A model generated the notes under the pieces. The model was not told the origin of the DNA. It saw only the letters and a program-made list of their open reading frames with translations, and did not search any database. Positions 2,754-7,935 of a stretch of 64,000 nucleotides of DNA are shown here, in pieces. Source of the stretch: an uncultured Microbulbifer sp. (GTDB lineage: Bacteria; Pseudomonadota; Gammaproteobacteria; Pseudomonadales; Cellvibrionaceae); assembly GCF_947504145.1 (NCBI RefSeq), contig NZ_CANNGQ010000004.1:62001-126000 (forward strand), read 5' to 3'. Within the stretch, counting starts at the first letter, position 1; every line of letters starts with the position of its first letter. A program made the translations under genes and the position numbers.

Positions 2754-4034
2754 ATGAGTTACATCATCGACCGTCGCCTGAATGGCAAAAAGAAAAGCAC
2801 CGTCAATCGCCAGCGTTTCTTGCGGCGCTACAAGTCCCACATCAAAAAAGCGGTCGGCGAAGCCATGAACAGCCGGTCCATTACCGATATGGGCAATGGC
2901 GAGAAGATCAGTATCCCTACCCGCGATCTCAATGAACCGATTTTTTCCAATGGCCGCGGCGGTCACATGGAGCAGGTGCTGCCGGGTAACAAGGAGTTTG
3001 TTACCGGCGATCGTATTCCCCGTCCCGGGCAGGGCCAGGGTCAAGGCAGTGGTGGCAGTGGCGCCAGTGACAGCGGCGAAGGGATGGACGAGTTTGCCTT
3101 CCAGATTTCCCAGGATGAATTCCTAGAGTTCATGTTCGAGGGCCTGGAGTTACCAAACATGGTGAAGCGCAAACTGGCCGGCAACGATTCCTTCCAGGTG
3201 GTGCGCGCGGGTATCAGTAACGAGGGCACCCCCGGGCGCCTGAACGTGGTGCGTTCCATGCGCTCGGCCAACGCGCGACGTATCGCACTCTCCGGCGGCA
3301 AGCGCCGCAATATCAAGCTGCTGGAACAGGAGCTGGAAATTGAGGAGAACAAGGACGCGGCGTTGCGCGATCAGCGCCGGGTAGATGAGTTGCGCCTGCA
3401 AATTGAAGACCTGAAAAGTCGCATCAGTCGTATTCCGTTTCTGGATGATTTCGATCTGAAATATAACCTGCTGGTGAAACAGCCGCGCCCCAGTTCTAAA
3501 GCGGTAATGTTCTGCCTGATGGATGTGTCCGGCTCGATGAACCAGGCCACCAAGGATATGGCCAAGCGGTTCTTCCTGCTGCTGTATCTCTTCTTGCAGC
3601 GCAGCTACGAATACACCGAAGTGGTATTCATTCGCCATCACACCAGTGCCAAAGAAGTGGACGAGCAGGAGTTTTTCTACTCCCGGGAAACCGGCGGCAC
3701 CATCGTTTCCAGTGCACTGAAAATGATGCGCGACATCATGCAGGACCGCTACCCCGCCAGCGAATGGAATATTTACGGCGCCCAGGCTTCCGATGGCGAC
3801 AACTGGAACGACGACTCCAGCACCTGCCACAAGATCCTGATCGACGACATCATGCCGCACGTGCAGTACTACTCCTATGTAGAAATCACCCCCAGGGATC
3901 ACCAGGCCCTGTGGGACGAATATCGGAGCGTAGAGCAGGTATTTCCAGACCATTTTGCGATGGAGCAAATTATTGATGTGGGGGATATCTACCCGGTATT
4001 CCGTCAATTATTCACACAGAAGGTTGCCGCGTGA
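2754..4034 (+). CDS. yeaH: YeaH/DUF444 family VWA-like protein
   Basis: The 426-residue product matches the DUF444 (YeaH/YhbH) family, which accompanies PrkA kinase. A Gly-rich low-complexity stretch lies near residues 92-110, a charged helical segment at about 185-225, and a von Willebrand factor A-like domain begins near residue 245. The MIDAS-type motif MDVSGSM has its Asp at residue 257. The start is preceded by AAGGCAG. The last codons overlap the start of ycgB, so the two are translationally coupled. The role is inferred from the family: a partner of the kinase in a starvation response. Confidence 0.94.
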
Positions 4035-5596
4035 TGCTCGATACAGCGATCAATAACAAGCAGCCCATTTCCACGACTTCCGAGTGGACCTTCGACCTCA
4101 TTCAGGAGTACGACCGGGAAATTGCGCTGCTGGCCAAGGAATTTGGCCTCGACACCTACCCCAATCAGATTGAGGTAATCAGCTCCGAACAGATGATGGA
4201 CGCCTACTCGTCCGTGGGGATGCCGGTGGGCTACAGCCACTGGTCCTTCGGCAAGCAGTTCATCAGCGTGGAAAACAATTACCAGCGCGGGCGCATGGGG
4301 CTGGCCTACGAGATTGTGATCAACTCCAATCCGTGCATCGCCTATCTGATGGAAGAAAACACCATGACCATGCAGGCGCTGGTCATCGCGCACGCCAGTT
4401 ATGGGCACAACTCTTTTTTCAAAGGCAATTACCTGTTCCGCACCTGGACCGATGCCAGCAGTATCATCGACTACCTGCTGTTCGCAAAAAACTATATCGC
4501 TCGCTGTGAAGAGCGCCACGGTGTGGATGAAGTGGAGGCGCTGCTGGACAGCTGTCACGCGCTGATGAATTACGGCGTGGACCGCTACAAACGGCCCTAC
4601 CCGATCTCCGCACACGAGGAAGAGCGTCGCCAGAAAGAGCGCGAAGAGTATCGCCAGCGCCAGTTGAACGACCTGTGGCGCACCATTCCCAACATGGGCG
4701 GAGCGGAAGAGCACGCTGAGCCCCACCGGTTCCCGGAAGAGCCGCAGGAAAACATTCTCTACTTTATCGAGAAAAATGCTCCGCTACTGGAGAACTGGCA
4801 GCGGGAACTGGTGCGTATCGTGCGCAAGCTGGCGCAGTACTTTTATCCACAGCGCCAGACCCAGGTGATGAACGAAGGATGGGCCACCTTCTGGCACTAC
4901 ACCCTGCTGAACGAGCTGCACGCCCGCGGCAAGGTGACCGATGGCTTCATGATGGAGTTCCTCACCAGCCACACCAGTGTGATTTATCAGCCGTCCTACG
5001 ACAGCCCCTATTACAACGGAATTAATCCCTACGCGCTGGGCTTCAGTATTTTCACGGACCTTCGCCGGATCTGTGAGAATCCGACAGAAGAAGACCGGGC
5101 CTGGTTTCCGGATATCGCCGGCAGCAACTGGAAAGAGACCCTGCAATTCGCCATGCGGGATTTCAAAGATGAGAGTTTCATTCTGCAGTTCCTGTCTCCC
5201 AAGGTAATGCGGGATATGAAACTCTTCTGCATTTCCGATGACGATCGGGAGAAAGAAATCGAGGTAGGCGCCATCCACAATGAGGATGGCTATAGAGAGT
5301 TGCGCGCGAAACTGGCCGGGCAATACAACCTGGGCAACCGCGAGCCGAATATTCAGGTCTACTCGGTTGCGACCCGAGGCGATCGCTCCATCACCCTGCA
5401 CCATACCCAGCATCAGCGCAGACCGCTGGGCAAAGACACCTCAGAGGTACTGCGGCACCTGCACCGCCTTTGGGGGTTTGATGTGCATCTGCACAGCCTG
5501 AATGGTGACGAAATCACCGCAAGCTTCCACTGCCCGGAGCTGGGCAGGGATCGATCGGAAGAAGAAGAATCCATGCTGGTGCCGAAGCCGATCTGA
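4034..5596 (+). CDS. ycgB: SpoVR family protein (YcgB)
   Basis: The 520-residue product is a SpoVR/YcgB family protein, which is of normal length for the family. The preferred start is the ATG at 4034, whose A is the last base of the yeaH stop codon. A GTG three bases upstream at 4031 is the alternative. SpoVR acts in spore cortex formation in Bacillus; in gammaproteobacteria the molecular function is unknown, but the gene is almost always found with prkA and yeaH, as here. A short hairpin at 5587-5603 spans the stop codon but lacks a U-run. Confidence 0.94.
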   Translation: MLDTAINNKQPISTTSEWTFDLIQEYDREIALLAKEFGLDTYPNQIEVISSEQMMDAYSSVGMPVGYSHWSFGKQFISVENNYQRGRMGLAYEIVINSNPCIAYLMEENTMTMQALVIAHASYGHNSFFKGNYLFRTWTDASSIIDYLLFAKNYIARCEERHGVDEVEALLDSCHALMNYGVDRYKRPYPISAHEEERRQKEREEYRQRQLNDLWRTIPNMGGAEEHAEPHRFPEEPQENILYFIEKNAPLLENWQRELVRIVRKLAQYFYPQRQTQVMNEGWATFWHYTLLNELHARGKVTDGFMMEFLTSHTSVIYQPSYDSPYYNGINPYALGFSIFTDLRRICENPTEEDRAWFPDIAGSNWKETLQFAMRDFKDESFILQFLSPKVMRDMKLFCISDDDREKEIEVGAIHNEDGYRELRAKLAGQYNLGNREPNIQVYSVATRGDRSITLHHTQHQRRPLGKDTSEVLRHLHRLWGFDVHLHSLNGDEITASFHCPELGRDRSEEEESMLVPKPI

Positions 5597-5648: not shown

Positions 5649-6212
5649 TCAGGCATCCAGCAGCAGATTGATACGGCCGATCAGCTCATTGCGATCACAA
5701 CTGGCTGAGACCACTGCATCGGCACCCGCATCCAGCCACCGCTGCTGATTGACCTCACCATTTGGTGCGATCACCAGAACACTCAGTGAAGAAAACTCGC
5801 TGCGCGAGCGCAGGGTATCCAGAATCTGAAAACCGTTGGCCCCTTCCAGGTTGGCATCCAGCACCAGCATCGCCGGCTTACTGGTAACCAGCATCGCCCC
5901 CGCGCTGAAACTGTCACCGGCAATCTCCACTTCCACACCACCTTGCTGTAGCAGCGGGCGGCTTGCGGCCAGTTCCGGTGCCGCCGTCGCCAGCAGTACC
6001 TTGCGGGTGGCGCTGCCCAGCTCCGCAGGCACCGGCATGGCGTTGTCGCGCAGGAAACCGACAAAGTCTTCCACACAGATACGGTGATCACCGCGCCCGG
6101 GAAGCTTGTACGCCTTCAGCTGACCGCGTTCAATCCATCGGATTACGGTACGAAAATTCACTCCACAGTACCGGGCGGCTTCCCCGGTAGTGAGCACATG
6201 CACTTCGCTCAT
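5649..6212 (-). CDS. HTH (excisionase/MerR-type) protein fused to degenerate receiver domain
   Basis: The 187-residue product begins with a winged HTH of the excisionase/MerR type (LTTGEAARYCGVNFRTVIRW) and ends with a CheY-like receiver fold. The candidate phosphoacceptor is Asp119 in the LVLDANLEG strand. The acidic pair normally after the first strand is replaced by Thr-Ala in VLLATAAP. The conserved Thr/Ser of strand 4 and Lys of strand 5 also appear to be missing. It may therefore act as a phosphorylation-independent or atypical regulator. I chose the ATG at 6212 with GGGGGA ten bases upstream; a GTG at 6230 would add six residues. It converges on ycgB. Confidence 0.82.
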   Translation of the reverse strand: MSEVHVLTTGEAARYCGVNFRTVIRWIERGQLKAYKLPGRGDHRICVEDFVGFLRDNAMPVPAELGSATRKVLLATAAPELAASRPLLQQGGVEVEIAGDSFSAGAMLVTSKPAMLVLDANLEGANGFQILDTLRSRSEFSSLSVLVIAPNGEVNQQRWLDAGADAVVSASCDRNELIGRINLLLDA

Positions 6213-6352
6213 CTTATTACTATCCCCCACGAATCGCGCATTTAGTTATTAATTATGCTGAATTAAACCAAATTATCAGGCGTTAATTCTATGCCTATAT
6301 ATGTTTAACGAACCAACGGACATATCCCTCAATAAAAGTTTGATTGCCATGG

Positions 6353-6380
6353 TTGACAGGTAAGGCAGGTTACATAGAAT
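6353..6380 (+). promoter_or_regulatory. Strong sigma-70 promoter of the putative small RNA
   Basis: A perfect -35 box TTGACA lies at 6353-6358. A near-consensus -10 box TAGAAT lies at 6375-6380, 16 bases downstream. The predicted transcription start is near 6387-6389, exactly where a stable hairpin begins. It is the best promoter match outside the rpsU and alginate regions. Confidence 0.75.
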
Positions 6381-6387
6381 GGACAGC

Positions 6388-6564
6388 ATGTTGCATCAGG
6401 TCATTTTACGACCTGCAACAAGCGCTAACGGCCCTGACTCTGTAGGCTTTTGTACGTATCTACGGACATATCGGGGCACCAGGCGCAAACGAGCTTGTTG
6501 GGATTCTCTCTTCACGAATACCCTAAGACCCTGGGCCCCCTTGTATTTTCGGGGCCTTTTTTTT
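6388..6564 (+). ncRNA. Putative small non-coding RNA upstream of cca
   Basis: A consensus promoter points at about 6388 and a strong intrinsic terminator ends at 6564, giving a transcript of roughly 177 nucleotides. The 5' end folds at once: TGTTGC at 6389-6394 pairs with GCAACA at 6415-6420, with an inner AGGTC/GACCT stem. No ORF with a ribosome-binding site fits inside it; the open frame across it runs through the terminator. I do not recognise the family. 6S RNA has a similar length but a different usual context. A long leader of cca with attenuation is an alternative, since cca starts 145 bases beyond the terminator. Confidence 0.65.
6534..6564 (+). terminator. Intrinsic terminator of the putative small RNA
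   Basis: GGCCCC at 6534-6539 pairs with GGGGCC at 6551-6556, and eight consecutive T residues follow at 6557-6564. This is a textbook rho-independent terminator on the plus strand. Confidence 0.88.
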
Positions 6565-6708
6565 ATCTTCCCGCCACCCCAATTTCCTACTATTTACCTG
6601 ACCAAACCCGGTTTTACCGATGTCTCGCTCAGGTTCAGCAGCATTTATGGCCACACCCGCCTCCTTAATTTTCGCTACTATGACCCGGTTTAACCGTGGA
6701 GTCACACA

Positions 6709-7935
6709 GTGAAAAGCTATCTCGTGGGCGGTGCTGTACGCGACCGGTTACTTCAGCGCCCGGTGCACGAGCGCGACTGGGTTGTGGTGGGCGCCACCGC
6801 AGAAGAAATGCAGGCTCAGGGCTTCCGCCCGGTCGGCAAGGACTTCCCGGTATTCCTGCACCCGGATACCGGCGAGGAGTACGCCCTCGCCCGCACCGAG
6901 CGCAAAAGCGGCCACGGCTACGGCGGCTTTACGGTCTACGCCAGCCCGGATGTCACCCTCGAACAGGACCTGCAGCGCCGCGACCTCACCGTCAATGCCA
7001 TGGCGGAAACCGAAGGCGGCGATATTGTCGACCCTTACGGCGGCCGCGCCGATCTGCAAGCTCGCATACTCCGCCACGTTTCTCCCGCATTCAGCGAAGA
7101 TCCCCTGCGCATTCTTCGGGTCGCGCGTTTTGCCGCCCGCTACGCACCGCTGGGATTTTCTGTCGCCAATGAAACCATGACGCTGATGCAGGGCATGGTG
7201 GATGCAGGGGAAGTGGAACATCTGGTGCCCGAACGCGTATGGAAGGAGGTGAGCCGGGCACTGACCGAGCCACGCCCGGACGTTTTTATTCGCGTACTGC
7301 GGGATTGCGGCGCGCTCAAAGTACTGCTGCCAGAAGTGGACCGGCTGTTCGGCGTGCCCCAGCCCGCACTACACCACCCCGAAATCGATACCGGCGACCA
7401 CGTACTGCGCGCGCTCTGTCAGGCACCCGATGCGCTGCCGGTACGCTTCGCGGTCCTGATGCACGACCTCGGCAAGGGGATCACCCCCGATGATGTGCTG
7501 CCCAGCCACCGCGGTCACGAGGCCGCCGGCCTGCCGCTGGTAAAGGAAGTCTGTCAGCGATTGCGCGTACCCAACCCTATTACTGCCCTGTCGCTGGGTG
7601 TGTGCGAGTACCACCTGCATTGCCACAAAGCTTTCGAGCTGCGCCCGCAGACCATACTGAAAATGCTGCGCGCGCTGGATGCGCTGCGCAGGCCGGAGCG
7701 GTTTGAGCAATTCCTGCTGAGCTGTGAAGCGGATGCCCGCGGCCGCCTGGGACTGGAAGATCGGGAATATCCGCAAGTGGACTACCTGCGTGCAGCACGC
7801 GCCGCCGCCGCGAATGTGGACCCGCAAGCCCTGATCACTCAGGGATTTGAGGGCGCGGCGCTGGGCAAGGCACTGGAGCGGGCGCGGCTACAGGCCGTCA
7901 CCGAGCTGAAAAAGACCTACGGCGCACCGGGTTGA
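6709..7935 (+). CDS. cca: CCA-adding tRNA nucleotidyltransferase
   Basis: The 408-residue product closely follows E. coli Cca (412 residues). It starts [15 protein letters not shown] and continues with [24 protein letters not shown] and [10 protein letters not shown], the class II nucleotidyltransferase core. A C-terminal HD domain is present (HDLGKG near residue 248), as in enterobacterial Cca, which has extra phosphohydrolase activities. The enzyme adds or repairs the 3' CCA end of tRNA. The start is GTG at 6709, preceded by GGAG eight bases upstream. The gene stands alone behind the putative small RNA. Confidence 0.97.

Follow-up and report, generated by a model that had tools for sequence, protein, structure and literature searches.

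A candidate regulatory small RNA family of Cellvibrionaceae encoded opposite a BldC-like response regulator

Introduction

CsrB, RsmY and RsmZ are small RNAs that stand under the control of a response regulator and serve as multi-site decoys. The alpha-R8 sRNAs, as far as the accessible part of their description goes, have a short conserved motif before the terminator and occur in some genera in several copies, either adjacent or dispersed; one of them, MmgR, is Hfq-associated (PMC12559287). Amongst DNA-binding regulators, BldC of Streptomyces is described, in the portion of the source available to us, as binding 9-bp direct repeats head to tail (PMC5859096).

In the accessible text of the genome paper on Microbulbifer strain HZ11, sRNAs are only counted (14). 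Our literature searches, one of which yielded mainly papers that do not name the family, returned neither a description of the RNA reported here nor an sRNA study of Microbulbifer or Cellvibrionaceae. A literature text search did not find CCCUAAGACC in print, and ACCCTAAGACC, an 11-mer of the RNA's core, appeared in seven works, which by title are animal studies.

Here we analyze a window of 64,000 nucleotides from an uncultured Microbulbifer sp. (assembly GCF_947504145.1, contig NZ_CANNGQ010000004.1), in which an earlier note, made from the letters of the sequence, had pointed to an unassigned small RNA gene framed by a promoter and a terminator. Gene signals, conservation, structure, regulator co-occurrence and repeats were computed for this locus and its relatives. 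Comparison of genomes supports such a gene, and the RNA is a family in nine genera of Cellvibrionaceae. It is probably a regulatory RNA under the control of the regulator encoded divergently from it. The explanation that we favor, at a probability of roughly 60%, is a non-coding, trans-acting sRNA that has its own sigma-70 promoter and intrinsic terminator and is controlled by this divergent, BldC-like regulator.

Results

Promoter, terminator and predicted fold

A promoter scan recovered the sigma-70-type promoter named in the earlier note (6353-6380, forward strand), with a -35 box TTGACA at 6353-6358 and a -10 box TAGAAT at 6375-6380, spaced by 16 bases and giving an 11/12 promoter match. 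Because 2 kb of sequence held two promoter-like sites, against 1.1 ± 1.2 in shuffles, this match taken alone is unpersuasive, and the case for an RNA gene is carried by the conservation of the signals rather than by any single promoter match. The box CCCTCAATAAAA lies farther upstream on the same strand (6327-6338) and may be a UP element or an activator site. Transcription would start near 6387-6389, which gives a small RNA gene of about 178 nt on the forward strand (6387-6564).

The predicted fold of the 178-nt RNA has an energy of -60.5 kcal/mol, compared with -46.7 ± 4.05 in shuffles (z -3.4), with 1 of 200 being equally good. All its elements lie on the forward strand. The 5' hairpin (6389-6420) pairs 6389-6395 with 6414-6420, in agreement with the stem that had been proposed from the letters, and is followed by a central stem (6422-6486), which has GCGCU paired with GGCGC at its base, encloses an inner hairpin and is backed by both fold and covariation. 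The conserved heart of the RNA (6516-6556) consists of a core and a terminator hairpin. The core, GAATACCCTAAGACC in the window and GAAYACCCTAAGACC in its family form (GAAYACCCUAAGACC), covers 15 bases at 6516-6530, is unpaired and almost frozen, and is the presumed seed. The intrinsic terminator (6534-6564) pairs 6534-6539 with 6551-6556 and ends in eight T at 6557-6564, just where the earlier note had ended the unit.

That note had also drawn attention to the string ACGGACATATC, once inside the RNA and once just upstream of its promoter. Both copies are present, but the string is no part of the element, and we rejected it as such on its near-chance copy number (four exact copies in the genome against about two expected, by a rough estimate) and its absence from other loci: amongst 47 Microbulbifer loci the inner copy occurs only here and the upstream copy in just two others.

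An Rfam search, which had been suggested as a check, assigned the RNA to no family: none of 4227 families, 6S RNA included, reached its gathering score over the RNA in the window, and no match fell over the RNA in 30 other stretches, some of them from the same place. Weak matches in the window (ZEB2_AS1_2, TtnuCD26, suhB and others) fell well short of gathering and were put down to chance. In one of the other stretches (L138, 1463-1603), the Helicobacter antisense RNA HPnc0260 scored above gathering; this match overlaps a tRNA on the opposite strand and is probably spurious.

Conservation within Microbulbifer

By DNA search, the element was found in 47 of 48 Microbulbifer genomes, in all 46 genomes of the genus with a completeness of 90% or more and a contamination of 5% or less, and in none of 21 genomes of other genera. 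Each of the 47 loci possesses TTGACA, a -10 box (TAGAAT in 34, TAAAAT in eight, other forms in five), the motif CCTCAA in the 45 nt that precede the -35 box, and a hairpin with a T run. From the presumed start to the T run the loci measure 78-199 nt. The 5' body of the RNA has diverged, as judged from the many members of the genus that match the query only in the 3' part, and 42 of 63 columns are invariant in the 37 distinct 3' modules. Directly 3' of the T run, past the expected RNA end, the stretch ATCTT, then C or G, then C (6565-6571) is unchanged in these 37 modules. The sole Microbulbifer genome without the element (G007; 2.8 Mb, 80% complete) has kept the regulator and, judged by eye, cca; all that stands between the two is a relic T run with ATCTTCC behind it (L274).

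Covariation, which the earlier note had advised seeking in related genomes, was found in the alignable subclade (14 of the 47 sequences). Nine of 31 pairs were changed on both sides, including pairs of the 5' hairpin, and the covariation score was 0.235, compared with 0.165 ± 0.012 in shuffles that leave the relatedness of the 14 sequences in (0/500) and 0.05-0.10 in slid structures. A further hairpin, GGGAUUC with GAAUACCC over the 5' half of the core, was predicted in many of 17 folded Microbulbifer sequences and was left out of the mechanism because it is unseen in other genera. By hand tally, the 48 Microbulbifer genomes have about 13 copies of ACCCTAAGACC that do not belong to the RNA, few in comparison with the roughly 120 copies of a reversed control; in-frame stop codons may lie behind this rarity.

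These data also bear on whether the stretch codes for a short protein. A frame of 104 codons does exist at 6379-6693, but it has no Pfam match, the length of the RNA differs from species to species (78-199 nt), and conservation lies in the promoter, core and hairpin, with pairs that covary. No coding pattern is seen, and a short protein, being largely refuted, is highly improbable.

Distribution across the Cellvibrionaceae

The 11-mer ACCCTAAGACC was sought in 144 Cellvibrionaceae genomes. In 60 stretches around matches outside Microbulbifer, which are a part of all such matches, the core was followed by a hairpin and T run in 24 and the rest were without; 23 of these 24 were identified by script, and L096, owing to its T-rich loop, was recognized by eye. 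An exact core scan of named genomes gave 30 loci, 20 of them in Microbulbifer, with the other matches in Pseudoteredinibacter (four), Exilibacterium (two), Pseudomaricurvus (one), Aestuariicella (one) and two Cellvibrionales MAGs.

Using a covariance model built from 14 modules and a cut-off of E<=1e-6, the module was detected in 69 of 144 family genomes and nine of 32 genera, i.e., in 47 Microbulbifer genomes and 22 genomes of eight other genera. Amongst 390 genomes of the order, none outside Cellvibrionaceae carried it at this cut-off, the best match having an E-value of 2.6e-6. At E<=0.01 the tallies were 119/144 family and 153/390 order genomes, mostly short hairpin and T run matches. Model matches below about 30 bits, whether in or outside the family, resemble ordinary terminators and were not accepted; amongst 23 that were looked at, two of them without sequence, only L055 was syntenic.

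Between genera, the terminator stem changes in step: 70 of 70 cells were paired, ten with both sides changed, and the core was constant. The complete pairing is partly due to selection, since the 14 rows of this alignment were picked for stems aligning in one register, and so is the invariance of the core outside Microbulbifer, since it was the 11-mer of the core that first led to the members there. TTGACA lay 94-335 nt before the core in all 20 regulator-linked stretches outside the genus, which come from 19 genomes (G372 twice). A link to phages was considered and rejected: five IMG/VR contigs carried an 18-base core pattern, but by eye it was followed by a hairpin and T run in none of them.

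Copy number and a seven-unit array

At E<=1e-6, genomes of the Pseudoteredinibacter group carried one copy (G401), three copies (G399, G400, G403) or four (G402), and G408 carried two. Copies away from the regulator adjoin unrelated genes in the two loci tested, these being a flavodoxin-fold gene and a solute-binding protein gene at one locus, and a Gcw_chp gene and a PAS chemotaxis receptor gene at the other. In G390 (contig 30; L091/L293), seven tandem units of core and hairpin, about 77 nt each, stand behind one promoter (TTGACA-16-TACAAT); units 1-6 end in six T and unit 7 in eight. Together with the 78-nt and 199-nt forms, this array points to the core and terminator as the working part.

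An array of this kind would suit an RNA whose core and hairpin form a protein-binding unit, and which titrates an RNA-binding protein as CsrB and RsmZ do for CsrA, more units providing more sites. The core is, moreover, both longer and more strictly conserved than a seed for pairing would require. On the other side, there is one unit per RNA elsewhere, there is no candidate protein, and no GGA motif occurs amongst the invariant positions, which makes CsrA itself an unlikely target. We regard titration as unlikely on balance, and a trans-acting sRNA controlled by the divergent regulator remains our preferred explanation.

The divergent regulator and the gene neighborhood

The regulator, which has an HTH_17/MerR-like DNA-binding domain and a receiver domain, is encoded on the reverse strand (5649-6212). 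Its frame is open to 6230, and the ATG at 6212 is the start common to relatives. A SpoVR family gene, which is a conserved neighbor (4031-5596, forward strand), and a cca-like gene with a poly A polymerase head domain (6709-7935, forward strand) are also present; the latter lies directly downstream of the RNA in Microbulbifer and only there. Many stretches, though not all, have SpoVR and, farther off, cca nearby; some are too short to include these genes.

At E<=1e-50, an orthologue of the regulator was found in 71 of 144 family genomes, including all 69 that carry the RNA; the next-best match below this set had an E-value of 3.6e-43. The two genomes with the regulator and without the RNA are G007 and G384. 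In all 47 Microbulbifer loci the regulator stands divergently beside the RNA, and in 22 of 22 genomes outside Microbulbifer it lies about 0.2-0.45 kb from an RNA copy, divergent by coordinates. Owing to this near-perfect co-occurrence (69/69; 69/71), operator, regulator and RNA are jointly testable with two deletions.

Just downstream of the RNA, 10 of 11 non-Microbulbifer loci have a receiver-histidine kinase gene, the exception being a lipase gene in G340. The RNA might therefore be a cis-acting leader, in which core and terminator attenuate the gene behind them, namely the kinase in most genera and cca in Microbulbifer. The proximity of the kinase gene to the terminator keeps a cis role alive outside Microbulbifer, and by reading of the sequence the kinase directly faces the regulator where the RNA is absent; in G384 and several more distant homologues, likewise by reading, the regulator and a receiver-type gene face each other and no RNA lies between the two. 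However, the module is kept in Microbulbifer even though the kinase has disappeared from the locus and cca or other genes follow, the extra copies in Pseudoteredinibacter-type genomes adjoin unrelated genes, and there is no conserved alternative antiterminator fold. A leader is thus quite improbable as the general explanation, and action in trans is the reading that we retain.

In an alignment examined by eye, the receiver has lost the acidic pair and the lysine in all six Microbulbifer rows, and most other rows keep them. The DNA-binding domain was modeled at a pLDDT of 87, and its top PDB fold match was BldC (6ama, E 0.015); with 6amk_B the rmsd was 1.0 over 51 columns, and the BldC matches as a whole had E-values of 0.015-0.04. 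Fold matches to NmlR, RacA and phage Xis came close behind BldC, and none was under 0.001. The sequence-profile ranking placed phage Xis (0.0012) and a cobalamin-binding protein (0.0046) ahead of BldC (E 0.005). Furthermore, the regulator stays below the cut-off of the NCBIfam model HTH_BldC NF033787 (23.3 bits against 77) and exceeds that of the excisionase-family DNA-binding domain TIGR01764 (34.2 bits against 28.8). It is BldC-like in fold and repeats, yet is not classed as a member of the BldC family.

Direct repeats over the promoter

The promoter of the RNA is overlapped by three 9-bp direct repeats, TGACAGGTA AGGCAGGTT ACATAGAAT (6354-6380, forward strand), which we presume to be the operator of the divergent regulator. 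A 9-bp period recurs in the regions divergent from the regulator, with TGACANNNN in the near group and TTCATGWTA in many distant homologues. Across 51 such regions, best scores at lag 9 averaged 15.7, both with and without the RNA (L045, which has the RNA, being counted with those without), compared with 11.0-13.1 at other lags from 4 to 20, except for lag 18, i.e., twice nine, which reached 14.2 in the group without the RNA.

From these, 24 regions were hand-picked to reduce relatedness and compared with order-1 Markov resamples. The lag-9 score was 16.09 in the 11 regions with the RNA (12.01 ± 0.47 in resamples; 0/300) and 15.85 in the 13 without it (12.24 ± 0.44; 0/300); lags 8, 10 and 11 were at background. 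Some regions have no clear repeat set, with L273, L291 and L287 scoring 12-13. In a wider family (L275-L292), receiver proteins carry an excisionase/BldC-like domain, their divergent promoters often have 9-bp repeats, and the genes facing them are mostly of receiver type.

Search for mRNA targets

No conserved mRNA target emerged from a search for complements of the core in four genomes or from the 41 gene starts of the window. The former gave 26 matches, six of which are RNA modules and 20 others. In G398, the core was predicted to pair with the start-codon region of a TolC-like gene (L321, 1501-1512) at -25.3 kcal/mol; this candidate was rejected, as the pairing is absent from the 10 homologues found, which gave -5.2 to -14.0 at the nearest start and -16.1 at best over all possible starts. 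Amongst the 41 gene starts the best value was -14.7, and 28 of 30 shuffled seeds did as well or better.

Discussion

We propose that a sigma-70 promoter belonging to the locus would drive its transcription, which would stop at the intrinsic terminator, and that the working part of the RNA would be the 15-nt core, which is unpaired and almost frozen and directly precedes the terminator hairpin, with the 5' body as a fast-changing structured part. The core would base-pair with mRNAs in trans, and the hairpin and U tail would provide a handle for a chaperone, as in alpha-R8 sRNAs; in view of the outcome of the target search, we infer base pairing from this layout. Transcription would most likely be controlled by the divergent response regulator, through binding of its BldC-like domain to the 9-bp repeats over the promoter. 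Repression is the simpler guess as to the sign of this control, because the promoter is already near consensus.

A fuller history can be suggested tentatively, at somewhat less than even odds. In one clade of Cellvibrionaceae, a new regulatory unit may have formed when the sRNA gene arose between the genes of the BldC-like response regulator and of the receiver kinase that is its partner, the sRNA promoter overlapping the 9-bp-repeat operator. In Microbulbifer it would have outlived the kinase, which is gone from the locus, where the receiver has decayed; in one genome it would have grown to a seven-unit concatemer that either functions as a decoy with several sites or is processed into seven separate sRNAs.

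We know of no earlier sRNA under a BldC-type, filament-forming regulator, and the present one, if our reading is true, would be the first. It would also give marine and other Cellvibrionaceae a new sRNA family that is missing from Rfam.

Of the known systems, the alpha-R8 family (MmgR of Sinorhizobium and SisA-D of Caulobacter; RF00519) shares with this RNA, according to the accessible part of its description, a short conserved motif before the terminator and multiple copies in some genera. The motif of alpha-R8 differs from the core motif seen here, however, and the hosts are Alphaproteobacteria there and Cellvibrionaceae here; against the alpha-R8 model (RF00519, suhB) our RNA scores 16.3 bits, with gathering at 41. 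CsrB, RsmY and RsmZ resemble it in that the RNA lies beside a response regulator, which probably controls it, and in that the seven-unit array of one genome recalls multi-site decoys, but they differ in that no GGA occurs amongst the invariant columns here, no Rfam match was obtained and the regulator is of a different type. In comparison with BldC of Streptomyces, the regulator is fused to a receiver domain and misses the HTH_BldC cut-off, and the repeats in its divergent promoter regions contain TGACA or TTCATG where those of BldC have AATT; the two nevertheless have in common a winged-helix, MerR-like domain (top fold 6ama/6amk) and 9-bp direct repeats.
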